Assembly (NCBI GenBank): GCA_947508145.1 | Contig: CANNRV010000003.1 | Location: 1 to 33,332 of the forward strand | Reading direction: 5' to 3' | Source of the DNA: Comamonadaceae bacterium | GTDB lineage: Bacteria; Pseudomonadota; Gammaproteobacteria; Burkholderiales; Burkholderiaceae_C | DNA length: 33,332 nt | In this document: in pieces, positions 1-27,402 of the stretch | How the letters are laid out: each line of letters starts with the position of its first letter | Numbering within the stretch: position 1 is the stretch's first letter | The notes under the pieces: generated by a model | Seen by the model: only the letters and a program-made list of their open reading frames with translations | What the model was told of the DNA's origin: nothing | The model's database searches: none | Made by a program: the position numbers and the translations under genes

Positions 1-231
1 AACATCGGCGCTTTGTCTGGCGCTAAGGTGTCGCCGGATGGCCGTGTGGTGTCTGAGCAGGAATGGAGTGCCAAGGTAGGCGAGTGGTTGCCCACAGCGG
101 AAGACCGTGCGTTTGTGCAAAGCCTGATGGGCCGTGTGGTGGAGCCGGGCAAGTTCGCTAACTGGATTGCGCCGCCTGCGATGGGTATCAATCGTCAGCC
201 GGTGGACTTTGAGTATGTGCGGTTCAACTGA
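1..231 (+). CDS. boxB: Benzoyl-CoA 2,3-epoxidase subunit B (BoxB), C-terminal fragment, 5' end outside window
   Basis: C-terminal peptide ...FANWIAPPAMGINRQPVDFEYVRFN resembles BoxB C-termini; boxA lies downstream on the same strand. Confidence 0.85.
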   Translation, partial: NIGALSGAKVSPDGRVVSEQEWSAKVGEWLPTAEDRAFVQSLMGRVVEPGKFANWIAPPAMGINRQPVDFEYVRFN

Positions 232-271: not shown

Positions 272-935
272 GCGCGTCGGCAGCGACAGGCGGGGTTCCT
301 CATACAGCGAGCTGAAATCGTCACCCCGCCTGCCTCTGCCACCGCGCTGCGAAAGGCGTCAGTCGGTTTGTGTGGTGAAAGATTGCTAAGCCGGTGTGGC
401 GGTGATGATGTTGGTTGGTTCAAGTTGCAGATGATTGCTGAATCCGCGCGTCGGCAGCGACAGGCGGGGTTCCTCATACAGCGAGCTGAAATCGTCACCC
501 TGCCTGCCGCTTCCACCGCGCTGTGAAAGGCATCAGTTGGTTTGTGTGGTGAAAGATTGCTGAACTCGCGTGGCGGTGGTGATGTTGGTTGGTTCGGGTT
601 GTGAAAGATTGCTGAACCCGCGCGTCGGCAGCGACAGGCGGGGTTCCTCATACAGCGAGCTGAAATCGTCACCCTGCCTGCCGCTTCCACCGCGCTGCGA
701 AAGGCGGGGTTCCTCATACAGCGAGCTGAAATCGTCACCCTGCCTGCCGCTTCCACCGCGCTGCGAAAGGCATCAGTTGGTTTGTGTGGTGAAAGATTGC
801 TAAGCCGCTGTGGCGGTGGTGATGTCGGACGGTTCAAGTTGCACATGATTGTTGAACCCGCACGTCGGCAGCGACAGGCGGGGTTCCTCATACAGCGAGC
901 TGAAATCGTCACCCCGCCTGCCGCTTCCACCGCGC
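272..935. repeat. Array of imperfect-palindrome (hairpin) repeats: copies at 272-347, 446-521, 620-695, a truncated copy at 702-761, and 860-935
   Basis: Copy starts are spaced 174, 174 and 240 (174+66) bp apart. Each full copy has 24-nt arms (about 20 of 24 paired) around a 28-nt loop TTCCTCATACAGCGAGCTGAAATCGTCA. A 66-bp direct tandem duplication (636-701 / 702-767) makes the truncated copy. Confidence 0.9.
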
Positions 936-1040
936 TGCGATTCACATTGTTTTAGCTCGTAGTTTCAAGGATAGAAAATGCACTTCGAGTTGGCTTCAAG
1001 TACATCTGTGTCGCGCAAAGTCATTTCCTTCGCAGAGGAC

Positions 1041-1104
1041 ATGCAGGCCGGGGTCGGGTGACGATTTCAAGCTTGCGCATGAGGAACCCGGCCCCGGTCT
1101 GCGT
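1041..1104. repeat. Inverted-orientation hairpin sharing the loop of the 272-935 repeats but with a different stem
   Basis: Arms atgcaggccggggtcggg / cccggccccggtctgcgt pair over 18 positions (3 G-T wobbles). The 28-nt loop on the minus strand is TTCCTCATGCGCAAGCTTGAAATCGTCA. Confidence 0.85.
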
Positions 1105-1190: not shown

Positions 1191-2459
1191 ATGAGCACAG
1201 ACACCGCCGAACTGCTACAGCAACACGTGATTGACCCCGAGGTGTGCATACGCTGCAACACCTGCGAAGCCACTTGCCCCGTGGGTGCGGTCACGCACGA
1301 CAGCCGCAACTACGTGGTCGACCCGGACAAATGCAACCACTGCATGGCTTGCGTGCCGCCGTGCCCCACGGGTTCGATTGACCATTGGTTGCCAGTGTTG
1401 CGCAGCAAAGCGTATTCATTGGCAGAACAACTGTCCTGGGACGAACTGCCGGCCGCGCAAGCGGTGGATGCATTGCAAGCCACTTCGCAAGTGTCGGGCA
1501 GCACGGCGTTTGAAACATTGGCCACATCCGTGCCAACCACCAGTTCTGCTGCGCCCGCGCTCAACACCGCAGCCATGGGTGCCACTGTGCCGCCATGGTC
1601 TGCCGCACATCCATACACCAATTTGCATGGCCCCAAGTCGCCGATCACCGCGACGGTGGTCGGCAATATGCAAGTGAATGAGCCCGGCACAGACAACGAA
1701 ACACACCACATCGTGCTGGACTTTGGCAGCATGCCGTTTCCGGTGCTCGAAGGTCAATCGGTGGGCATCGTGCCGCCCGGCGTGGACCCGAATGGCAAGC
1801 CGCATCATGCGCGTCAATATTCAGTGGCCAGCCCGCGCAACGGCGAGCGGCCCGGTTACAACAACTTATCACTCACCGTGAAACGCGTGGTGCAAGACCA
1901 CCATGGCCAGGCCGTGAAAGGCGTGGCATCCAACTATTTGTGTGACCTGAAAACCGGCGATAGCGTGCAAGTGATTGGCCCGTTTGGCAGCAGCTTTTTG
2001 ATGCCCAACCACCCTGGCAGCCACATCGTGATGATTTGCACCGGTACCGGCAGCGCACCCATGCGCGGCATGACCGAATGGCGCAGACGCATACAGGCCA
2101 GCGGCAAATTTGCAGGCGGCAAGCTGATGCTGTTTTTCGGCGCACGCACGCAGCAGGAGTTGCCTTACTTCGGCCCGTTGCAAAAGTTACCCAAAGACTT
2201 CATCGATATTCACTTTGCGTTTTCACGCACACCCGGTCAACCTAAGCGCTATGTGCAAGACGCGATGCGGGATGCATCCGCACAACTGGCCACTTTGCTG
2301 CAAGACCCGCAAACGCATTTTTATGTCTGCGGTTTGAAGAGCATGGAAGAGGGCGTGTTGCAGGCCATGCACGACATCGCTGTAGCTGCGGGTTTGGATT
2401 GGACTTCGATTGCAGCGGGGTTGAAGCAAGAGGGTAGGTTGCAGTTGGAGACGTATTGA
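1191..2459 (+). CDS. boxA: Benzoyl-CoA 2,3-epoxidase subunit A (ferredoxin + FAD/NAD reductase domains)
   Basis: N-terminal double 4Fe-4S motif [16 protein letters not shown]...[16 protein letters not shown] followed by a ferredoxin-NADP reductase-like domain ([22 protein letters not shown]). Confidence 0.92.
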
Positions 2460-2607: not shown

Positions 2608-2741
2608 ATGAGGCCGATTCAAAAGTTACCTGCTATTTTTTACTGTTCTGCATCAGGGCATGAGCCTGTTCGCGAATGGTTAAAGACGGTGAATACGCCA
2701 TCACACGTTTGAAAGAATGGAAACATGAGCAAAACAACTAA
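2608..2741 (+). pseudogene. Remnant of HigB/RelE-family (Gp49-like) toxin gene
   Basis: Frame 1 gives MRPIQKLPAIFYCSASGHEPVREWLKT(VNTPSHV*), like the N-terminus of HigB-type toxins. A shifted frame gives a plausible toxin C-terminus ...EYAITRLKEWKHEQNN* (stop 2739-2741) overlapping the antitoxin start; the middle is missing. Confidence 0.6.
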
Positions 2742-3021
2742 ATCCAACAAACACTCGGGAAGCAGCTTTGACGAATTCTTGATTGAAGAAGGTATTTATG
2801 AGTCAGTTCAAGCGCGCGCATTGAAGCGTGCATTGGCCGAGCAACTGAGTGATGCCATGCAAACCGGAAATATCAGCAAAGTGGCTATGGCGCAGCGCAT
2901 GGTGACGAGCCGATCTCAGTTAGACCGGGTACTTGACCCGGAGAATTTGTCCATTCAATTGGATACGTTGATCAAGGCGGCCAGGGCGGTGGGTAAGACA
3001 GTTGAAATTCGGTTGCGGTAA
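2725..3021 (+). CDS. XRE/HigA-type helix-turn-helix antitoxin
   Basis: 98 aa with HTH-like segment ISKVAMAQRMVTSRSQLDRVLDPENLSIQLDTLIKAARAVGKTVEIRL; follows the toxin remnant. Confidence 0.7.
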   Translation: MSKTTKSNKHSGSSFDEFLIEEGIYESVQARALKRALAEQLSDAMQTGNISKVAMAQRMVTSRSQLDRVLDPENLSIQLDTLIKAARAVGKTVEIRLR

Positions 3022-13120: not shown

Positions 13121-14032
13121 TCAATCTTCGGTCAAAAGGGTATTTTGCACTCCGCTGGCCACATGGCCTGACGGCACATGACGGGCCGCAGATTCGATGT
13201 GCCCGGTCTGGTCGTCGAAAAAGAAATCCGGCTCGAATTCACGCAGAAATTCGCCCTTGGGCAGACCGCCCAAAAACATGGCTTCGTCCACCTGAATATT
13301 CCATTGCATCAGCGTGCGGATGGCGCGTTCGTGCGCCGGGGCGCTGCGTGCTGTCACCAAGGCGGTGCGTATGCGTATAGCCGGGGTACTTTCTTGCTGC
13401 AAGCGGTGCAAGGCGGCCAGCAAGGGTTTGAACGGACCGGCTGACAGCGGTTGCGCTGCTTTGTCTTTTTCGTGCTGTTGAAACGCGTTCAGGCCTAGCG
13501 ACTGAAACACCCGCTCGGCCTCGTCGCTGAACAGCACCGCGTCGCCGTCAAACGCGATTCGCACTTCATTCGGGTGGGCGGCGGAGGCATGCGCCGAATG
13601 CGGATACACCTGCGCGGCTGGCACACCGGCGTCCAGCGCGGCACGCACATCGCTTAAATGGGTGGACAAAAACAAATTGGCGTTCAGCGGTTTGAGGTAG
13701 CGCCAAGGTGGTTGCCCGCGTGTGAAACTGCCGCGCTGAATGTCCAAGCCGTAATGTTGCGCCGAGCGAAATACGCGCATGCCGCTGACCGGGTCGTTGC
13801 GCGACAAGATGACCACTTCCACCCGCGCGTCCCCGGGGCTGTTGAAGGCCAGCAGTTTTTTCACCAGTGAAAACGCCACGCCCGGCAGCGCCGGTTGCTC
13901 AAGACGCGCCAATTGCAAATCCATATAGGCGCGGTCGTCGTTTTGCTCAAAAACCTGGTTTTCTTCCTCGAAGTTGAACAGGGCCCGCGAAGAAATGGCC
14001 ACCACCAATTTGCCGTCCAGCGTACTTGCCAT
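13121..14032 (-). CDS. 5'-nucleotidase (cytosolic 5'-nucleotidase-like family)
   Basis: VVAISSRALFNFEEEN, VVILSRNDPVSGMRVFRSAQHYGLDIQRGSFTRG, FFDDQTGH motifs. Confidence 0.8.
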   Translation of the reverse strand: MASTLDGKLVVAISSRALFNFEEENQVFEQNDDRAYMDLQLARLEQPALPGVAFSLVKKLLAFNSPGDARVEVVILSRNDPVSGMRVFRSAQHYGLDIQRGSFTRGQPPWRYLKPLNANLFLSTHLSDVRAALDAGVPAAQVYPHSAHASAAHPNEVRIAFDGDAVLFSDEAERVFQSLGLNAFQQHEKDKAAQPLSAGPFKPLLAALHRLQQESTPAIRIRTALVTARSAPAHERAIRTLMQWNIQVDEAMFLGGLPKGEFLREFEPDFFFDDQTGHIESAARHVPSGHVASGVQNTLLTED

Positions 14033-14041
14033 GTTGAACCT

Positions 14042-15262
14042 TCATCGCACGAACTGATTGAGTTGGATGATGGGCAGCATGACCGCCAATACGATCAGCA
14101 TGACCACCGCCCCCATGGTAACAATCAACAGCGGTTCCAAAATAGTGGCCAGTTGCATGGCCCGGCGTTGCACTTCTTCAGACAAATGGTCGGCGGCGTG
14201 TTGCAGCATTTGCGGCAGCTGACCGGTTTGTTCGCCTAAGCTGGCAAACATGGGCAGCAAGCCGGGCAGCCGTTTGTTTTGCGACAAGGCCACCGCCAGC
14301 GGTGCGCCTTCGCGCACCAGTTCGATGGCCTGCAAAGCGTTGTCGCGCAGCGCCATATTGGACAAGGTCTGCGAGGCGGTTTGCAGGGATTTGAGAATGG
14401 GCACACCGGCCCCGGCCAGCAAAGCCAGGGTGCCGGCAAACCGCGCGGCGTTGTAGCCCAGGCTCAAGCGGCCCAAGAGGGGCAGGCGCAGCCACAGGGC
14501 ATCGAATTGCTGACGGAATGCGGCCTGGCGCAAGGCCAGCATCAGTAAAAGCCAGCCCAACACCAGCCCGCCCAACATCCAGGCCCACAGCGCTTGCACC
14601 CAGCCGCTCAGGGTCAGCATGAGCACGGTCAAGCCGGGCAGGCTGCGTTGGGTGCTGGTGAACACTTGCGCGACTTGCGGCACCACATAGGCCAGCAAGA
14701 AGATCACGATCAACAGGGCCACACCGCTGACGATGGCCGGGTACAGCGAGGCGGTCAGCAACTTCGCGCGCATTTGGTTGGCGGCTTGTAAATCGGCGGC
14801 GAGCTGGATCAGCACCTGAGCCAAGCGCCCGCTTTGTTCGCCCGAGTCCACCACGGCCAAATACAGCGGATCGAATTCGCGCGGGTGCATGGCCAGGGCT
14901 TGTGCCAGTGGTGCGCCTGCATTCACCTCGGCTCGCACCTGGGCTTGCAGTTCGCGTTGCGCCGGGGTGTCTGCTTGTTCCAGCAGGGCGGAGAGCGCCC
15001 GCTCCAGCGGCAAACCGGCAGACACCAAGCTGGCCAGTTGGCGGGTCCATACCGCCAATGTGCTGCGGCTGAAGACACGTGCTTGCCACAGCACGATGTC
15101 GCCTTTGCGGGTGGTCGGCGACAGCGTCAGGATTTGCAACTTGACGGTGACCAGCGACTGTTGCCGCAACTGGCTGCGGGCGGCGCGTTCAGATTCGGCC
15201 TCGATCACGCCTTGCACATTGCGGCCCAGCGGGTTGATGGCGTGGTAGGTGTAGGCCGGCAT
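14042..15262 (-). CDS. gspF: Type II secretion inner membrane protein GspF
   Basis: MPAYTYHAINPLGRNVQGVIEAESERAARSQLRQQSL and two T2SSF domains. Confidence 0.92.
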   Translation of the reverse strand: MPAYTYHAINPLGRNVQGVIEAESERAARSQLRQQSLVTVKLQILTLSPTTRKGDIVLWQARVFSRSTLAVWTRQLASLVSAGLPLERALSALLEQADTPAQRELQAQVRAEVNAGAPLAQALAMHPREFDPLYLAVVDSGEQSGRLAQVLIQLAADLQAANQMRAKLLTASLYPAIVSGVALLIVIFLLAYVVPQVAQVFTSTQRSLPGLTVLMLTLSGWVQALWAWMLGGLVLGWLLLMLALRQAAFRQQFDALWLRLPLLGRLSLGYNAARFAGTLALLAGAGVPILKSLQTASQTLSNMALRDNALQAIELVREGAPLAVALSQNKRLPGLLPMFASLGEQTGQLPQMLQHAADHLSEEVQRRAMQLATILEPLLIVTMGAVVMLIVLAVMLPIIQLNQFVR

Positions 15263-15265
15263 GCG

Positions 15266-16654
15266 TTAGTCCCGGGTGACGCGCAGCAGTTCTTGCGCCG
15301 AGGTGATGCCCAGCCCGACCAAACGCTGGCCGTCGTCGCGCAGGCTGAGCATGCCTTGTTGCAGCGCGGCTTCTTTGATGCGCGGTTCACCGGCGCGGTC
15401 GTGGATGAGCTGGCGCACGGTTTCGTCCACCGTCAGCAACTCGAAGATGCCGGTGCGGCCCTGGTAGCCGGTGCGCCCGCAGGCATCGCAGCCTTTGCCG
15501 CTGCAAGCGGTGCAGAGTTTGCGCACCAGCCGTTGCGCCAGCACGCCCAGCAGCGACGAGCTGAGCAAAAACGGTTCTATGCCCATGTCTGTCAAACGTG
15601 TGACCGCGCTGACCGCGTCGTTGGTGTGCAAGGTGGCCAGCACCAGGTGGCCGGTGAGCGAAGCCTGCACCGCGATTTGCGCGGTTTCGTGGTCGCGGAT
15701 TTCGCCGATCATGATGATGTCCGGGTCTTGGCGCAGGATGGCACGCAGGGCTTTGGCGAAGTCCAAATCAATTTTCGGGTTGACCTGGGTTTGGCCGACA
15801 CCGGCGAGCTCGTACTCGATCGGGTCTTCCACGGTCATGATGTTGGCGTGCGCCGCGTCCAGCATTTGCAGTGCCGCGTACAAGGTGGTGGTTTTGCCCG
15901 AGCCGGTCGGGCCTGTCACCAGCACGATGCCGTGCGGTTGTTGGATCAGTTGTTCAAAACTGTGCAAGGTGTGGCCTTGCATACCCACGGCTTGCAGCGT
16001 TAAGCGGCTGTCGCTTTTGTCCAGCAAACGCAGCACCGCGCGTTCGCCATGCGCCCCCGGCAAGGTGGACACGCGCACGTCAATGGCGCGTTGGCCCAAG
16101 CGCAAGGAAATGCGGCCGTCTTGCGGCAGGCGTTTTTCGGCGATGTCTAAATCGGCCATGATTTTCAAACGCGAAATCAGCGCGGCGTGCAAGGCGCGGT
16201 TTGGGGTGACGACTTCGCGCAACGTACCGTCGATGCGAAAACGCACGCTGGAATGGCGCTCATACGCTTCTATGTGAATATCGCTGGCACCGTCTCGCGC
16301 GGCTTGCATCAACAAAGCGTTGAGCATGCGGATGATGGGCGCGTCCGCCGAGGCCTCGAGCAAATCTTCCACGGCGGGCAGCTCTTGCATCATGCGTTTC
16401 AAATCGGCTTCGCTTTCCACTTCGCTCATCACCGTGGCGGCGCTGGACTCGGCCCCGGCATAGCTGGCGCTGATGCGTTGCGCCAGCGTGGCAGGGTCGG
16501 TTTCATGGAATTGCTGCACAGCGTGGCAGCGCAACACCTCGCTCCAAGCCCCAGGCGCCGGGCTGGCGTGGTGCCACAACGTCAAATGACGGCCATCGTC
16601 TTCCAACAGCAACTGGTGGCTGCGGGCAAACGCGTATGGCAAAGGATGGCGCAT
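15266..16654 (-). CDS. gspE: Type II secretion ATPase GspE
   Basis: Walker A GPTGSGKTTTLYAAL, IEAYERHSSVRFRIDG, RAILRQDPDIIMIGEIRDHETAQIAVQASLTGHLVLATLHTNDA, C-terminal CxxC...CxxCG zinc motif. Confidence 0.95.
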   Translation of the reverse strand: MRHPLPYAFARSHQLLLEDDGRHLTLWHHASPAPGAWSEVLRCHAVQQFHETDPATLAQRISASYAGAESSAATVMSEVESEADLKRMMQELPAVEDLLEASADAPIIRMLNALLMQAARDGASDIHIEAYERHSSVRFRIDGTLREVVTPNRALHAALISRLKIMADLDIAEKRLPQDGRISLRLGQRAIDVRVSTLPGAHGERAVLRLLDKSDSRLTLQAVGMQGHTLHSFEQLIQQPHGIVLVTGPTGSGKTTTLYAALQMLDAAHANIMTVEDPIEYELAGVGQTQVNPKIDLDFAKALRAILRQDPDIIMIGEIRDHETAQIAVQASLTGHLVLATLHTNDAVSAVTRLTDMGIEPFLLSSSLLGVLAQRLVRKLCTACSGKGCDACGRTGYQGRTGIFELLTVDETVRQLIHDRAGEPRIKEAALQQGMLSLRDDGQRLVGLGITSAQELLRVTRD

Positions 16655-16657
16655 GCG

Positions 16658-18757
16658 CTAGTGCCCCTGTTCCAGCGGTTGCGGGTTGAGCAAAGGCTGT
16701 GGTTTGACCGGCTGCGCTTTGTCGGTTTGTCCCGGCAGCGGCGGCAGCACCTGGTCATTGGGCACCGGCAAGGTGGCGGTGCCGGGTTTGAGCGATTCGG
16801 TTTGCAGGCCTTGCATCTCGCGGTAGCGACCGTTGGACAAGACCTCGGCGCTGACATCGTCGCGCACCACCACGGGACGCAAAAACACCAGCAGATTGGT
16901 TTTGTTGCGGCTGCGGCTTTCGCTTTTGAACAAGCCCCCTAAGAACGGTAAATCGCCTAAGCCGGGCACTTGCTGGCGGTTGTCTGAAAAGGTGTCGGAC
17001 AACAAGCCGCCGAGCACCACCACCGAGCCGTCGGCCACCACGATGTTGGATTCGATGGAACGCTTGTTGGTGATCAACCCGTCGGTGGTTTTTTTCGAGG
17101 TGTCAATGCTGGAGACCTCTTGGAAGATGCTCATCTTCACCGCGCCCGCGTCGTTGATTTGCGGCTTGACCTTGAGCGTCAAACCCACGTCTTTGCGCTC
17201 TACGGTTTGAAACGGGTTGACCGCGCCGCTGGTAGCGGTGGTGGCGTTGGTGTATTGGCCGGTGACAAAAGGCACGTTTTGGCCGACGACGATCTTGGCT
17301 TCTTCGTTGTCCAGCGTCAGCAGCGAGGGCCGCGACAAGATGTTGCTGCCGCCGTTGGATTGCAAAAAATTGGCCAGTGCGGTCATGACGGTGGAGCCGC
17401 CGATGTTGCGTGCCGTGCCTATGTTCAAACCCGCGCCGGGGAGGGTGGCGCCGTTGCTGGTGCTGATGCTCAGCAAGTTGTTGTTGGTGCCGAAGTTGGT
17501 GCCCAGCACGGCGATATTGCCGCCTGCGCTGCCCACCGCGTTTTGCCACTGAATGCCGAACTGCGCTTCCTTTGAAGAATCGACTTCGACGATCAGGCTT
17601 TCCACCAGCACCTGGGCGCGCCGCTGGTCCAGCGCATCAATGACCGCACGCAGTTGGCGAAACTGCGGTTCGGCGGCGGTGATGACCAGCGAGTTGGTGG
17701 ACGGGTCGGCTTGGATCTGGCCGCCGGTGGTGGGCAGGCTGCCGGTGCTGGCGTTGTTGCCCGGGGCCGCGCCCGGCGTGCTGCTGATGGCCAGGGTCGA
17801 CGCGTTGTTGCCCGCCATGGCGGCACGCAAGGTGTTGGCCAGTTTGGTGGCATCCGCATTTTTCAAATACACCACATGGATATTGCCGCTGGCCAGTTCG
17901 CTGGCCGGGCGGTCCAGCTTGTCGATCAGGCTGCGCACCTGTGCCTGACGCGCCGGGTTGGCGCTGCGCAAAATGATGGCGTTACTGCGCGGCTCGGCCT
18001 GAATGCTGGTTTTGAATCCGGTGTCGCTTTGACCGGCACCAGCGGTTCCTGTCGCGCCACCGTCCACCAGTTTGGCCAGCAAGGCTGCCAGGTCGGCGGC
18101 CAACGTGTGCTGCAAGGGAATGATTTCCACATCGGTGGCATTGGCCACGTCCAGCGAGGCGATGATGCGGCCCATGCGTTGCAGGTTGTCGGCGTAATCG
18201 GTGATCACCAGCGCGTTGCTGCCCGGGGTGACGTTGATGGTGTTGTTCGGGCTGATGAGAGGTCGCAGCACGGCGACCAGGTTGTTTGCGTTCTCGTGGT
18301 TCAGCTTGAAGATTTGCGTCATCACCTGCGCGTTGTTCGGTGTGCCTGACAACGGCACCACGGCGGTTTGCCCGCCTTGCAATTTGGCCTCGGCCTCGGG
18401 CACCAGTTTGTACAAGCCCTGGGTTTCAATGACCGCAAAGCCTTGCAGGCGCACCACCGCCAAAAACTGGTTCCAGGCCACCGACGCGGGCACCGGTTGT
18501 TCGGTGGTCAGCGACAAGCTGCCTTTGACACGCGGGTCCACCACCAGACTGCGTTTGGTCAAACCGGCCAGCGTGCGGGCCACGGCTTCTATGTCGGCAT
18601 TGACAAAATTGAGCGTGATCGGTTTTTCTGCAGCGGCTTTGGGTTTGTCATTGACCACAGCTGGCGGCTTGCGTTTATCGGCAGCATGCGCTGTAGACAT
18701 GGCAACACACAGCGCGGTCAGCAGACTGGGCAGGACAAATTTGGAAAGCGTTTGCAT
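16658..18757 (-). CDS. gspD: Type II secretion secretin GspD
   Basis: N-domains plus secretin core with VPGLGDLPFLGGLFKSES. Confidence 0.95.
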   Translation of the reverse strand: MQTLSKFVLPSLLTALCVAMSTAHAADKRKPPAVVNDKPKAAAEKPITLNFVNADIEAVARTLAGLTKRSLVVDPRVKGSLSLTTEQPVPASVAWNQFLAVVRLQGFAVIETQGLYKLVPEAEAKLQGGQTAVVPLSGTPNNAQVMTQIFKLNHENANNLVAVLRPLISPNNTINVTPGSNALVITDYADNLQRMGRIIASLDVANATDVEIIPLQHTLAADLAALLAKLVDGGATGTAGAGQSDTGFKTSIQAEPRSNAIILRSANPARQAQVRSLIDKLDRPASELASGNIHVVYLKNADATKLANTLRAAMAGNNASTLAISSTPGAAPGNNASTGSLPTTGGQIQADPSTNSLVITAAEPQFRQLRAVIDALDQRRAQVLVESLIVEVDSSKEAQFGIQWQNAVGSAGGNIAVLGTNFGTNNNLLSISTSNGATLPGAGLNIGTARNIGGSTVMTALANFLQSNGGSNILSRPSLLTLDNEEAKIVVGQNVPFVTGQYTNATTATSGAVNPFQTVERKDVGLTLKVKPQINDAGAVKMSIFQEVSSIDTSKKTTDGLITNKRSIESNIVVADGSVVVLGGLLSDTFSDNRQQVPGLGDLPFLGGLFKSESRSRNKTNLLVFLRPVVVRDDVSAEVLSNGRYREMQGLQTESLKPGTATLPVPNDQVLPPLPGQTDKAQPVKPQPLLNPQPLEQGH

Positions 18758-18759
18758 GC

Positions 18760-19548
18760 TCAGCCCAATCTCAAAATGGTTTTGTCACCGGTGCGCTGAC
18801 CCAGCACACCAAGTAAATTGTTCAAAGCGTTTTCATAGCCCAGCATGGCCCAGGCCTCGCCCTGAAAACGGAAATGCCCGGCTTGCCAACTGCCGCTGCC
18901 TTGCAGTTGCAATTTGCCTTCGCTGGTGCGCAGTTGCAGCGTGGGCGTGGGGCCGCCTTGCAATTGCACAACGTAAGTGCCCAGCGGTTTGAGGGTGGAC
19001 AAACTCGAACTGAGGTGGCGCAGTTCCAAGGTGGCCGCGCCGCTTAATCGCCAGTTGCCGTTGGACGTATGCCATTGCAGTTGCTGGCTGTTGAGCGCCA
19101 GACGGCCTTGCAGGTTCATGCTGTTCCATGGTGCGCCCAAGCCGGACAGCCATTGCGCCGGCCAGACCGAGTCGATGTTGTTGAGCGTGATGTGCAGGCC
19201 TTGCCAATCGGGTTTCAGTTGCATCAGCAGTGCTTGTGAGGTGCAGCAATCGACTTGCAGTTCGATCTGCAAGCTGGCATCCCAGTTCGGGCGTAGGCGC
19301 CAGTGCACACGTTGCGGCAAGGCCAGCGCCTCGCGCCCGCCCGCTCCGGCGGCCAGCACCCATTGCGCACTGCCGTCCCACACCGTGCCGCGCACCTGGC
19401 GCAATTGCACTTGCTCGTGCGTGAGGTGTTGCACCGCCAATGCCAGCCACTGCCCGGGCGCAAACCACAACAAGGCCGCCAGACTGCCGATCAGCAGGCT
19501 GATGAACAGCTTGTGCCGCGCGAGTGTGTCATTTGAAGTTGGTGTCAT
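18760..19548 (-). CDS. gspN: Type II secretion protein GspN
   Basis: Single N-terminal TM, GspN-like beta-rich sequence, position between gspM and gspD. Confidence 0.8.
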   Translation of the reverse strand: MTPTSNDTLARHKLFISLLIGSLAALLWFAPGQWLALAVQHLTHEQVQLRQVRGTVWDGSAQWVLAAGAGGREALALPQRVHWRLRPNWDASLQIELQVDCCTSQALLMQLKPDWQGLHITLNNIDSVWPAQWLSGLGAPWNSMNLQGRLALNSQQLQWHTSNGNWRLSGAATLELRHLSSSLSTLKPLGTYVVQLQGGPTPTLQLRTSEGKLQLQGSGSWQAGHFRFQGEAWAMLGYENALNNLLGVLGQRTGDKTILRLG

Positions 19549-19555
19549 AAGGTGT

Positions 19556-20029
19556 TCAGCGGCTGTTGGGAATGCTCAATACCAATTGGCCGTCCCAGTG
19601 GCCTTGGCGGGATTGCCAATGCGCTTGCTCTGGCTTGGCCCGGGCTTGCAGCCGCGCTTGGGTGATGAACTCGGCCAGTGCCTGCGGGGCTGCATCTTTG
19701 AATTGGATGTTGACCCGGTCGGCTTGCACCTGGACTTGGGTGGATGGTCCCAGCGTCTTGGCCAGTTCCTGCAAGCTGCGCAGACTGTTGGGCGGCGCTG
19801 CGGCGATTTGCTGTTGCAGTTGCTGTGCCTCCTGTTGCCACGCTTGCATGTCGGCCAACTGTTGGTCTAACTTGGCTTGTTGCGCCCGGTCGCCGCGCCA
19901 CACCTGCCAAGCCGGTGCCACGCCTGTTTGCCACAACAGCCACAGCCCCAGCAGCACGGCGAGGCTGTGCAAGCCAAGTTGTTCGCGCGGGCTGCGGGCG
20001 GCCAGCCACTGTTTGAGGCTGTCCATCAT
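19556..20029 (-). CDS. gspM: Type II secretion protein GspM
   Basis: MMDSLKQWLAARSPREQLGLHSLAVLLGLWLLW; start at 20029, 4-bp overlap with gspL. The ORF-track extension to 20536 is out-of-gene. Confidence 0.85.
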   Translation of the reverse strand: MMDSLKQWLAARSPREQLGLHSLAVLLGLWLLWQTGVAPAWQVWRGDRAQQAKLDQQLADMQAWQQEAQQLQQQIAAAPPNSLRSLQELAKTLGPSTQVQVQADRVNIQFKDAAPQALAEFITQARLQARAKPEQAHWQSRQGHWDGQLVLSIPNSR

Positions 20030-21210
20030 GGTGTTTTTCCTAGCCGCCACACGGCCACCCGGTCTTGCAGTTGCCAGTCGTAGCCTTTGGCTTGCCAAGC
20101 GTGTTTGCCGAGTTGCTGCACGGTGTCGTCCGGCAAACCGCTGATGCGCAATTCGCCCGGTTGGTAGTCCAGGCGCTCTGGCATGGCCGTGTTGGGCCAG
20201 GCATCGGCCAGGCTGTTGAGCATCTGCTCCATGTCGCCGGGTGACAGTTGACCGGCTTGCTGACGCAGTTGCTGCAATTCGCGTTGCATTTGCAAACCGG
20301 GGTCTATGACCACGCCAGTTTTCGGAAAGCTTTGGCGAAACAGTTGTTCCAGACTGTGTTGCTGGCGTGCCCGGTTGGCTTGGGTTTGCCAAGCCCAGAC
20401 ATTCATGCCCACCAATTGCACCAGCGCCAAAGCCAGCAAGCTGCGGCGGCAACTGCGCCATTGCGGGCCGGACCACAGGCTGCGCCACCCTTGCTGCAAC
20501 AGCCGCCAGCCGCGTGAACGCCGGTTGCTGGCCCATTCGTCTTGCGCCATGTCCCAGTCGGAGCGCGCTGCCTGCAACCAGCGCTGCGCTGTGGTCAGCA
20601 GCTCAGGCGCTTGGGCATGCCAGCGGGCGCTGTGGTTCACCATGGCCGGATCGGCCCACACGGTCACGGCGCTGGCTTGTGTCAATGCCGAGGCAGTAGG
20701 CGAGGGCAGCAACCACACGTTGTGCGCGTCACACAGCAAAGCGCGTTGCTCGCCCAGTTCATTCAACAGGTACAGCTTGGCCGCTTCGTCGCTGGCGACG
20801 GGCTGGTATTCGGGCAGGATGCGTTGCACCTGAAAACCGGCGGCTTGCAGCGGGGCCAATGCCTGGCGCAACCAGCGTTTGTCGCACACAGCCACTTGCA
20901 CCCAACCGCCTTGCCTGAGCGCAGCGGCGCTGCCCGGTGCAGTCACCATCAACAGGTCTTGCGGGTCTTGCAGCAACTCGTCTTCCAGCAGACTGTGCAA
21001 CACAGCGGTTTTGCGTGAACCCACGGCGGGCGGTAATTGGACACTGTGCCAAGACAGCACTTGCCAAGGAAGTAACACCACGGTTTCACCGTGACCGGAG
21101 GATAGACGACGGGCATCGGCTTGGGAGACTTGATTGACACGCATGCCGTCAGAACTGATCACGTAGTCCAACTGGCCTTGCGCCAATGGCGATAAATAAA
21201 TGATCAACAT
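20026..21210 (-). CDS. gspL: Type II secretion protein GspL
   Basis: GspL-like cytoplasmic domain and C-terminal periplasmic domain; syntenic position. Confidence 0.85.
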   Translation of the reverse strand: MLIIYLSPLAQGQLDYVISSDGMRVNQVSQADARRLSSGHGETVVLLPWQVLSWHSVQLPPAVGSRKTAVLHSLLEDELLQDPQDLLMVTAPGSAAALRQGGWVQVAVCDKRWLRQALAPLQAAGFQVQRILPEYQPVASDEAAKLYLLNELGEQRALLCDAHNVWLLPSPTASALTQASAVTVWADPAMVNHSARWHAQAPELLTTAQRWLQAARSDWDMAQDEWASNRRSRGWRLLQQGWRSLWSGPQWRSCRRSLLALALVQLVGMNVWAWQTQANRARQQHSLEQLFRQSFPKTGVVIDPGLQMQRELQQLRQQAGQLSPGDMEQMLNSLADAWPNTAMPERLDYQPGELRISGLPDDTVQQLGKHAWQAKGYDWQLQDRVAVWRLGKTP

Positions 21211-22181
21211 GGTGGTTGGATTCTAGAAACGCATCCCGGTTCTGAATACAAAGGTCGACGTTCTCGCCACACCGTTTTGCTGACGATTCCTTCACGTTTG
21301 ACCAGAGAGCGCTCTAGCAGCGTGATGCCCTCCAGCCTGAGTTGCCCCATGATTTCAAAATAACTGCTGCGGGTGTCGTGCCGCTTCTCGCTGATGGCTT
21401 GCGCCAGCGGGCCCATGCGACTGCGTGCATCTGCCAGGTTGTCCCAAGGCTTGTTGCTGCGCTCGTTCACCCATTGGCGGGCGGTGAACAGATCCAGCCC
21501 AGGGATGCTGGCGGACAAGACCTCGGCGCTGGCCGTGTTCAGGTTGATGGCGGTGCTCGCTGGCAGGATGGTGATGTGCGGCGCCAGTTGCGCCAAGCTG
21601 TTGCTGCTCAAACCCAGCCAGCTGAGTTGCTCAATATGTTGCGGCACCAAAGGCGCATTGGCTGGCGGATTGGTTTGCAGCGCGGTTTTCAAACGGCTGG
21701 TCCAGGCCTGCAATTCGGCATCGGGCAAACGCAGTTGCCGGTACAGGCGCAGCCAGATTTGCCATTCCGCCGGGTCGATCTCGCCATTCACAACCAGGTT
21801 GCGCACATTCAGCCGCGATTGCATGTCGGTGATGTGGCCGGACAAAAACACCTGATCGGCCAGCCCGTCTGCGTCAGTGATCACGCCGCTGGTGTCTGCC
21901 GCCAGAAACCGGGACAAACGCGCTTCTTGCAAAGGCAAGGCCCAGGGTTCGGCCAAGTGGTCCGCGCCGCCGTTGCGCCCGTCTTCACGCAACACCACCC
22001 GAGCCCAGTCCTGCGCACCGGCCAACAGCCAGCGGCCTTGTTGCGCATGCCGCTCGGCGGTTTCCACCGACACCGTGCGCCACTGTTGCCACAAACCGGC
22101 AGAGGCCAGCATGGCGATCAAGGCCACGGTCAACATGGCCATCAGCAAGGCCGCACCGCTGTGAGGGGTCGGGTGTTTCAT
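21204..22181 (-). CDS. gspK: Type II secretion minor pseudopilin GspK
   Basis: N-terminal GAALLMAMLTVALIAMLASAGLWQQW and downstream GspK helix-hairpin-helix region; syntenic. Confidence 0.88.
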   Translation of the reverse strand: MKHPTPHSGAALLMAMLTVALIAMLASAGLWQQWRTVSVETAERHAQQGRWLLAGAQDWARVVLREDGRNGGADHLAEPWALPLQEARLSRFLAADTSGVITDADGLADQVFLSGHITDMQSRLNVRNLVVNGEIDPAEWQIWLRLYRQLRLPDAELQAWTSRLKTALQTNPPANAPLVPQHIEQLSWLGLSSNSLAQLAPHITILPASTAINLNTASAEVLSASIPGLDLFTARQWVNERSNKPWDNLADARSRMGPLAQAISEKRHDTRSSYFEIMGQLRLEGITLLERSLVKREGIVSKTVWRERRPLYSEPGCVSRIQPPC

Positions 22182-22858
22182 GAGCGGCTCGGGTTGTAGC
22201 CGGGGTTGACCCAGTCCAGCGTCATCGACCCGCTGTCCATGTTGAATTGAATCCGCACCGCGTCCGGCAAACCGGCTTCTTGCAACTGCTGGTTGGCGGT
22301 CTTTGCGTCAGCGGCATTGCCCACACTGCTGAGCGGATTCACCCAGGCGTTGTCTCGGTAGTAAAACAATTGCCAGCTTGTCATCGGCATCAACTGCGCT
22401 TCAAACCGGCGCGATTCGCTGCTGGGGTTTTGCCCCCATTGGCTGGCTTCTTGCCAGGCTTGCAACACAGCGGCGCGGTCGCGCAGATCAGGCGACTGCC
22501 AGCGCCACCAATGGCCGTCGCGCACCGTCCAGGCCACCACCCACAGACCGGCGTCTTCACCGCCGTGCGACACACTGCCGCTGCGCCGCAGCATTTGCAA
22601 GGTCTTGCCGTTCCAGCCCAGCGCGGCATCCCGCAAAAGACCGGGCATGGCTTGCACAGCGTTCAAATCTGCCTGCCATTGAGACACGCTGACTTGCACC
22701 AGCGACACCGCGTCGGAGCGGGAACGCGTGACTTCACGTGTGCGCAACATGCTCTCCAGGCCGCGCCAACTCATGAGTGAGAGCAGCGCCATCAAGGCCA
22801 GCGCTACCAGCACTTCCACCAGCGTGAAGCCGCGCGTGGCTGTTGGCGGGCGCGGCAT
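22178..22858 (-). CDS. gspJ: Type II secretion minor pseudopilin GspJ
   Basis: Prepilin motif RG^FTLVEVLVALALMALLSLMSWRGL; start MPRPPTATRG at 22858. Confidence 0.88.
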   Translation of the reverse strand: MPRPPTATRGFTLVEVLVALALMALLSLMSWRGLESMLRTREVTRSRSDAVSLVQVSVSQWQADLNAVQAMPGLLRDAALGWNGKTLQMLRRSGSVSHGGEDAGLWVVAWTVRDGHWWRWQSPDLRDRAAVLQAWQEASQWGQNPSSESRRFEAQLMPMTSWQLFYYRDNAWVNPLSSVGNAADAKTANQQLQEAGLPDAVRIQFNMDSGSMTLDWVNPGYNPSRS

Positions 22859-23265
22859 CAAAACCGCCCTTGCAAACCGGTGACGCTGAGCAAGCCGCTG
22901 CCGTTTTCCCGCACTTGCACATCGACCCGGCGGAACAGCGGGTTGGGCGTGGCCGCCACGGTGATGCGCACTTGCATCTCGTGGTCCGCTTGCACGCAGG
23001 TCCCTTCTTGTTGACCCAGACTGGTGAATTGCGGCGACAAGCGCAGTTGCACCAGCGCGTTGTCCGCACAGGTTTGCGCCAACAGCATTTGCCACTGCCG
23101 CCCGGTGCTCATCGTCATGCTGGCCGATGCGCGCAAACCGGCCAACACGCTCACAGACAAAATGAACAAAGCCACCAACACTTCAATCAACGTGAAGCCG
23201 CTGGCGTTTTTTGTCGCCCGCGTTGAAAGGAGTGGCGGCGGCAGAGTCAAGGCAGCAGCTTCCAA
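22858..23265 (-). CDS. gspI: Type II secretion minor pseudopilin GspI
   Basis: Prepilin motif SG^FTLIEVLVALFILSVSVLAGLRA; syntenic. Confidence 0.88.
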   Translation of the reverse strand: MEAAALTLPPPLLSTRATKNASGFTLIEVLVALFILSVSVLAGLRASASMTMSTGRQWQMLLAQTCADNALVQLRLSPQFTSLGQQEGTCVQADHEMQVRITVAATPNPLFRRVDVQVRENGSGLLSVTGLQGRF

Positions 23266-26108: not shown

Positions 26109-26181
26109 TTAACTATTATTAATAACTCGTGTTACTATTCATTGACATTTAAAAAGATTGATTGCTAAAGGATATAAACCC

Positions 26182-27402
26182 ATGGCGCAAGATATATTGA
26201 ACTATAGAACTAATCATTTCCCTGTGAATATCTCCTTTTTAAATCAGAACATACAGTCTGATGCATCCCAATGGATGTCTGTTATTCAGTTGAATCAAAA
26301 AGAAGTTAATAAACCGGTTGAATTTAAATTAAAACATTCATTAAATAATCATTCAGAAGATTTAAATAACCATAAAGGTATTGCTTTATTAAGCAGGGCT
26401 TCAGCGACAGATTTTGTGTCCATGGACCAGGTGGTGCGGGTCATTCTGGCCCAGGAAAAGCACAAAGTGGTGCGAAACGAAATTACCGAGGGCACTTACC
26501 GCATGACCAAGGTCAGGCTGGAAACGCATATTGCCGCTTTTTTTGCCGAGACTGATTTGCGCACTATCAACATGGGCAGCATCCAGCGCTTCATCGACTA
26601 TTTGTCAGACCAGGACTTGTCTACACCGACCATCGTCGGTTACATCGCGCAACTGCGAAAAGTACTGCGGTATTTGGTGGAGCAAGAGCACATTCCACAA
26701 ATGCCCTTGTTCCCCAAAATGAAGATCACGCAAAAACCGCGTGGCGCATTCACGGTCACCGAATACGCGGCCATTCTTCGTCAGTCCAAAACCTTGCGCC
26801 GACAGGTGTTTCATTGGGACAAGCCTGACACACGGTTTCACATCAAGCCCGAATACCGCAGCATGCCCCTGGAGATGAATTGGCTGATCCGCTTCATGGT
26901 GTACACGTTTTTGCGCCCGGGTGATGTGCGGCAACTGAAAAACAAGCACATAGAAATCATCAGCGGCAAGTTCAACTATTTGCGTTTAACGCCACCTGAA
27001 ATCAAACGCCACAAATCGCCCACCGTCAGCCTGCCGCAGGCAGTGAACATTTACAAAACGCTGCTGGCGCACCAAACGGCCAAAGGCTTTGGCAAGCCCG
27101 ATGACTATGTGTTTTTTCCGGAAGAAAAAAACCGGCTGCGCTGTTTGAACACCATAGGTTGGCTGTTCAACTGGATCATGAACACGCTGGGCATCAAGGC
27201 CGGGCCGCACGGTGCGGACCGCAGTTTTTACAGCCTGCGGCACACGGCCATTACCTTTCGTTTGATCTTCGGCGGCAACATCGATTTGCTGACGCTGGCG
27301 CGTAACGCCCGCACCTCGGTGGAGATGATCGAGAAGTTTTACGCCTCTACTTTGTCAGCAGAAATGAACATCAGCCTGCTACACAGTAAACGGCGGTCAT
27401 GA
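26182..27402 (+). CDS. Tyrosine recombinase / phage-type integrase
   Basis: FLRPGDVRQLKN (Arg I), SLRHTAITFRL (HxxR-type box variant), MIEKFYAS (catalytic Tyr); start ATG at 26182 preceded by AAAGGA (ORF track uses TTG 26158). Confidence 0.85.
   Translation: MAQDILNYRTNHFPVNISFLNQNIQSDASQWMSVIQLNQKEVNKPVEFKLKHSLNNHSEDLNNHKGIALLSRASATDFVSMDQVVRVILAQEKHKVVRNEITEGTYRMTKVRLETHIAAFFAETDLRTINMGSIQRFIDYLSDQDLSTPTIVGYIAQLRKVLRYLVEQEHIPQMPLFPKMKITQKPRGAFTVTEYAAILRQSKTLRRQVFHWDKPDTRFHIKPEYRSMPLEMNWLIRFMVYTFLRPGDVRQLKNKHIEIISGKFNYLRLTPPEIKRHKSPTVSLPQAVNIYKTLLAHQTAKGFGKPDDYVFFPEEKNRLRCLNTIGWLFNWIMNTLGIKAGPHGADRSFYSLRHTAITFRLIFGGNIDLLTLARNARTSVEMIEKFYASTLSAEMNISLLHSKRRS

Follow-up and report, generated by a model that had tools for sequence, protein, structure and literature searches.

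The stretch of DNA analyzed here, 33,332 nucleotides long and hereafter called the window, opens with the end of the boxB gene, which is followed by an array of five hairpin elements, a sixth hairpin in the inverted orientation, and boxA (Table 1). Further features of the window are a run of type II secretion genes, an open reading frame with a weak integrase-type domain match, and a small gene that by reading has the look of an antitoxin.

Table 1 Features of the window
Feature	Position	Strand	Basis
boxB 3′ end (benzoyl-CoA 2,3-epoxidase subunit B), upstream neighbor	1–231	+	NCBIfam TIGR03225, E 8e-31, profile end 471/471
Array copy 1, apex 296–323	278–341	+	Model R1, 79.1 bits
Tandem-duplicated block with the array copies	280–940	+	Three 247-nt copies, 92–93% identical, spacing 174 and 240
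Array copy 2, apex 470–497	452–515	+	Model R1, 77.5 bits
Array copy 3, apex 644–671	626–689	+	Model R1, 77.5 bits
Array copy 4, apex 710–737; duplication junction cost most of the left arm	692–755	+	58.0 bits; sequence
Array copy 5, apex 884–911	866–929	+	Model R1, 79.6 bits
CGCAG, 5′ side of hairpin 1041–1104 on the constrained strand, REP-tag-like position	1031–1035	+	Sequence
Hairpin element with 18-bp stem and apex	1041–1104	− (TTCCTCAT reading)	Model R1, 72.7 bits
Conserved apex of hairpin 1041–1104, TTCCTCAT-GCGCAAGCTTG-AAATCGTCA	1059–1086	−	Pattern match
boxA (benzoyl-CoA 2,3-epoxidase subunit A), downstream neighbor	1191–2459	+	NCBIfam TIGR03224, 718.7 bits
Short possible toxin fragment, before the antitoxin-like gene	near 2608–2712		By reading
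Small gene, antitoxin-type helix-turn-helix look	2727–3021	+	By reading
Type II secretion gene run (GspD, GspE, GspF, GspK, GspL, T2SSN)	13121–23095	−	Profile matches
ORF, weak phage-integrase SAM-like domain match	26158–27402	+	PF13102, E 6e-7

The arms of the sixth hairpin, at 1041–1058 and 1087–1104, pair on the + strand at 18 of 18 positions when checked by hand (15 Watson-Crick pairs and three G·U wobbles), bearing out the complete stem pairing proposed in a first-pass annotation of this DNA. The three wobbles turn into A·C mismatches when the minus strand is folded, and the folding energy is accordingly far more favorable for the + strand (−54.0 kcal/mol, z −6.5) than for the minus strand (−38.5 kcal/mol, z −3.7); the + strand is the better-folding single strand of this element. 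In the minus-strand reading, its 28-nt apex is TTCCTCAT-GCGCAAGCT-TGAAATCGTCA, with identical letters in the relative G044, while all five array apexes read TTCCTCAT-ACAGCGAGC-TGAAATCGTCA. A pattern search of the window for TTCCTCAT-N9-TGAAATCGTCA returned six matches, five on the + strand and one on the minus strand, and none in 100 shuffles, in agreement with the earlier description of this hairpin as carrying the loop flanks of the array in inverted orientation around a different middle 9 nt.

The inverted hairpin pair that lies between boxB and boxA has been enlarged in this window by tandem duplication. The orthologous gaps in G044, G109, and G121, whose neighboring genes were taken as orthologous from position and length alone, hold two or three copies with the same two stem types. 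The first-pass annotation had preferred selection to passive duplication; the covariation described below upholds this for the family, but the five array copies themselves are a local tandem duplication.

The hairpin at 1041–1104 and the five array copies are members of one dispersed hairpin family. A degenerate pattern search in relatives recovered this apex on stems of other sequence, and a covariance model, R1, was built from 15 elements; its alignment displays both-sided changes at 16 of the 18 outer-stem pairs, and the observed covariation score was reached by none of 500 shuffles. Altogether, 149 distinct elements were extracted, so that the further genomic copies with a conserved loop and compensatory stem changes, on which the first-pass annotation had staked its reading, were found in number. 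In the layout common to the family, an 18–22 bp stem of locus-specific sequence bears at its tip the motif TTCCTCAT-nested hairpin-AAATCGTCA. The apex is near-invariant (TTCCTCAT ... AAATCGTCA, the outermost pair being T-A or C-G) and forms, across the family, an internal loop of TTCCTCAT against AAATCGTCA with a small nested hairpin of 8–17 nt as its cap; the latter varies in sequence and length, and its stem letters covary (examples are G-CTGG-GGTA-CCAG, GCTGCGAGCAG, and GGTGCGGGCACGCAC). The 28-nt loop of the first-pass annotation thus keeps its length and flanks in common with the array, but it is not one open loop. Among 35 elements with a mutual difference of at least 12 of 36 stem positions (the dissimilar set), 94.4% of the stem pairs are Watson-Crick, against 46.5% with shuffled arms (maximum 52.9%), and at least two pair types occur at 17 of 18 stem positions. 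In 14 of these 35 elements, the TGACGATTT strand has CGCAG or CGTAG at its 5′ foot, as compared to a shuffled mean of 1.6 and a single occurrence at the other flank; the tag letters in the family are mostly GCAG, not GTAG.

The stems are also polar. Positions that are not Watson-Crick are mostly A·C in the TTCCTCAT reading, which corresponds to G·U on the complement, and G·U favors one strand by 26 to 3 among the 35 dissimilar elements (p about 8e-6) and by 169 to 18 in all 149 elements. From these nearly one-sided wobbles it follows that it is the TGACGATTT...ATGAGGAA strand whose fold is under constraint, which is the + strand for the hairpin at 1041–1104; the family polarity thus identifies + as the better strand of the window copy, in agreement with the folding energies. 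Constraint would be a likelier source of this bias than mutation, since the leading-strand skew, mostly positive for GC and negative for AT on the right arm of G057, would push the other way where the TTCCTCAT strand is leading. Covariation and the one-strand G·U bias together fit a structure that is read single-stranded and recognized at its tip, which supports the earlier proposal of an element selected as folded RNA or single-stranded DNA with loop recognition. Selfish mobility accounts for the data at least as well as a host function.

Within the genus, which may be Limnohabitans, model R1 matched 40 of 84 genomes, with up to 24 copies each; within the family it matched 32 of 251 genomes, these representing 23 of 141 genera. 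Of 250 genomes in an order-wide sample, two had matches, both from the carrier family and none from the other families of the sample; as far as sampled, the hairpin is restricted to one Burkholderiales family, the Comamonadaceae. It occupies many unrelated loci and is absent from close relatives. Where the apex alone was matched in other families and phyla, the stem was missing and the match is ascribed to chance; a phage origin was rejected as the apex matches in viral contigs likewise lack the stem, and the plasmids searched for the hairpin gave no match. A known annotated family, which the first-pass annotation had named as evidence against its reading, was not encountered in Rfam: the window holds no match at the gathering score, and the sub-threshold ones are chance matches to microRNA and snoRNA models only. 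A literature search turned up no relevant account of repeats like these from Limnohabitans or Comamonadaceae. The hairpins apparently constitute a so far undescribed family of repeated DNA in many Comamonadaceae genomes.

Inverted pairs are frequent, with members about 60–140 bp apart that possess different stems and near-identical apices, and the intergenic copies, judged by simple ORF calls, lie mostly in gaps between convergent or unidirectional genes. Both orientations relative to genes occur. In counts that take in orthologues, single copies from unidirectional gaps have an antisense TTCCTCAT strand in 13 cases and a sense one in 4; of 12 copies inside genes, 9 have it sense, and it is the leading strand for 20 of 24 single copies from four complete or near-complete genomes. 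In these four genomes, the origin was located from dnaA at the beginning of the contig (G057) and from skew (G057 and G049), and was assumed in G047 and G104. As both gene orientations occur, yet 20 of 24 copies share the same replication strand, DNA fits better than mRNA. This comparison bears on the main rival explanation, a structured RNA motif (a cis-acting mRNA element or a small RNA) whose apical internal loop a protein would recognize, and whose copies would be selected for an RNA role such as 3′-end protection or regulation. Such a motif would be in keeping with G·U tolerated on one strand, with a conserved internal loop accompanied by compensatory changes, and with copies that lie mostly downstream of genes, their constrained strand being mRNA-sense in 13 of the 17 single copies in unidirectional gaps. 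We regard it as unlikely, however: within genes the constrained strand is antisense in 9 of 12 copies, inverted pairs place it on both DNA strands, and a motif without an Rfam match would have to serve many unrelated loci while being dispensed with in close relatives. Two other candidates were set aside. For an intrinsic terminator, the T-run of the TTCCTCAT reading lies before and not after the hairpin, and the opposite strand has an A-run behind it; for an integron attC site, judged from general knowledge, the conservation is apical instead of basal.

Family members sit even in essential genes without breaking them. Copies are found in frame in uvrA, in leuS, in the gene for a formate-dehydrogenase-like molybdopterin subunit (fdhA), and in that for an HrpA-like helicase (hrpA), where they encode peptides such as PGSSCGEPKSSPG. 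In leuS, the insert occupies the same place in G041 and G204, which belong to different genera, while most relatives read VVSVKDQ-AFND without it; in G040 and G101 (loci L139 and L140), only alanine-rich flanking residues are kept, which suggests loss of the insert by imprecise deletion. An old insertion followed by loss could also explain a leuS site filled in two genera. The leuS gene of G367 (L135) carries an apparent degenerate remnant of the insert. The uvrA insert is present in G057, G047, G049, G032, and G041 and absent from G040, G104, G010, G003, and G101. Genus g93 possesses a long uvrA frame (2,330 codons in L114) with several hairpins, partly as inverted pairs, and the best R1 matches of about nine further genera also lie in uvrA, two of these without base-by-base inspection. 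In the carrier family, uvrA is about twice its usual length, with two UvrA-like halves and roughly 1,900–2,300 codons (L114 2842–9831 of G290; also L113, L115, L116, L129, and L352–L366). At the hrpA site, 7 of 20 stem positions hold different Watson-Crick pairs among four orthologues, which are nonetheless 97% paired, demonstrating that pairing is maintained despite the coding constraint.

The filled and empty sites, from which we infer mobility for the family, also weigh on an explanation that invokes neither selection nor mobility. Here, template-switch repair of quasi-palindromes would perfect the inverted repeats, gene conversion would homogenize the apices, and ordinary duplication would spread the copies. 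The plain tandem duplication of the window array, the apex variants that pair members have in common, as conversion would give, and the general knowledge that one template-switch event can make both-sided changes would all accord with it. It nevertheless predicts wobbles without strand bias, where 26 to 3 was observed, no clean insertions, which leuS and uvrA possess, and no apex conservation across 23 genera; this explanation is already disfavored and appears highly improbable.

A real, covarying, and strand-polar hairpin family is thus at hand, and we think it probable that the element is a REP-like mobile palindrome of DNA, most likely recognized at its apex. This reading draws on the 149 elements, in which the apex is constant and the stems are compensated, the sites in leuS and uvrA that are filled or empty among relatives, the in-frame gene copies with compensatory changes inside the coding sequence, the inverted pairs, host genes, and placement that match those of published REPs (PMC3733652), the G·U bias, and the tag enrichment. 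Each copy is a hairpin with an 18–22 bp stem and a capped apical internal loop, in many copies with a basal CGCAG/CGTAG tag; the stem sequence drifts by compensatory changes while the apex stays near-invariant, and copies would spread as single-stranded DNA hairpins whose apex is read by a putative hairpin-binding enzyme of the HUH/Y1 type or another. Against the mobile reading, published REPs have far shorter and less variable stems, and the hairpin flanks no transposase gene, the only Y1 enzyme having repeats of its own. A more specific proposal can be offered tentatively: the hairpin may hold its identity only in the apical internal loop, read single-stranded by a putative protein, with a stem that drifts under compensation, repeated in-frame entry into essential genes, and uvrA as a hotspot across many genera.

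The Y1 enzyme is a candidate mobilizer in trans. Of about 235–260 residues and single-copy in most genomes of the genus, it scores 72–87 bits against NCBIfam REP_Tyr_transpos (cut-off 80) and weakly matches the solved TnpA_REP 4er8 (E 1e-4). If this Y1 (HUH) protein mobilized the hairpin in trans, the hairpin would be the REP of a RAYT-like enzyme; the score near the cut-off, the association within the genus (36 of 40 carriers versus 29 of 44 non-carriers), and the lack of any other Y1 match in carriers like G057, G049, and G041 are in line with this, and the four carriers without the protein are incomplete assemblies or have a weak hairpin match. The idea is nonetheless quite doubtful, as 53 of 54 sampled family genomes possess the protein whether or not they carry the hairpin, no hairpin lies beside the Y1 gene at 15 loci, and long inverted repeats with GGGGTCAG flank the gene in two of four loci examined. 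A dedicated partnership was rejected on account of this ubiquity and these separate repeats, despite the genus-level association. The GGGGTCAG repeats are partly palindromic themselves (L295 3089–3947 and L304 3332–4169), giving a TIRYT-type element that is single-copy family-wide. The TIRYT motif is GGGGWSAS (PMC3733652), and for TnpAY1 subclass 2.1 no REP has been found (PMC6006769); the Y1 enzyme resembles these in its GGGGWSAS-type flanking repeats, which are unrelated to the hairpin.

These data add to the Comamonadaceae a mobile-looking palindrome family of unusual design, in which the apex is constant and the stem is free. The filled and empty leuS and uvrA sites, with compensation inside coding sequence, offer a natural experiment on selection for the protein versus selection for the nucleic-acid fold, and hairpins in the uvrA of about ten genera make it testable why palindromes accumulate in this gene, which PMC3733652 names among those carrying REPs in unrelated bacteria. 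The missing mobilizer poses a concrete question, as the sole Y1 enzyme is of a type without a found REP substrate.

Among known systems, the BIME/REPIN arrangement of paired REPs has as its common unit two inverted hairpins with two stem types, as here, but the two stems of the present pairs are unrelated in sequence and have the apex alone in common. Rickettsia palindromic elements (RPEs), likened here by description, are palindromes inserted in frame that the protein tolerates and that relatives lack at the corresponding site, and such insertions are what leuS and uvrA display; RPEs belong to a different lineage, and the cited review of REPs does not describe an apex-conserved, stem-variable design for them. 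REPs carry GTAG or CGTC tags, form inverted dimers, and lie near gene 3′ ends (Di Nocera et al. 2013, PMC3733652), and the genes of unrelated bacteria that contain them include uvrA and those for tRNA synthetase and RNA helicase (PMC3733652). Like these superfamilies, the present hairpins are dispersed, form inverted dimers, favor convergent or unidirectional gaps, and enter the same three kinds of genes with one strand polarity. Published REPs are, however, 20–40 bp palindromes with a family-constant stem, whereas the elements described here span at least 64 nt and have a locus-specific stem with the apex alone constant, and their putative tag, at the 5′ foot of 14 of 35, is mostly GCAG in place of GTAG. 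In a REPtron, the RAYT gene is flanked by the same repeat, while none of the 15 Y1 loci has the hairpin. We therefore call the family REP-like and do not file it as REP, as it departs from REPs in length, in the constant stem, and in the flanking transposase, and behaves as they do in its inverted dimers, its placement, and its copies inside genes.
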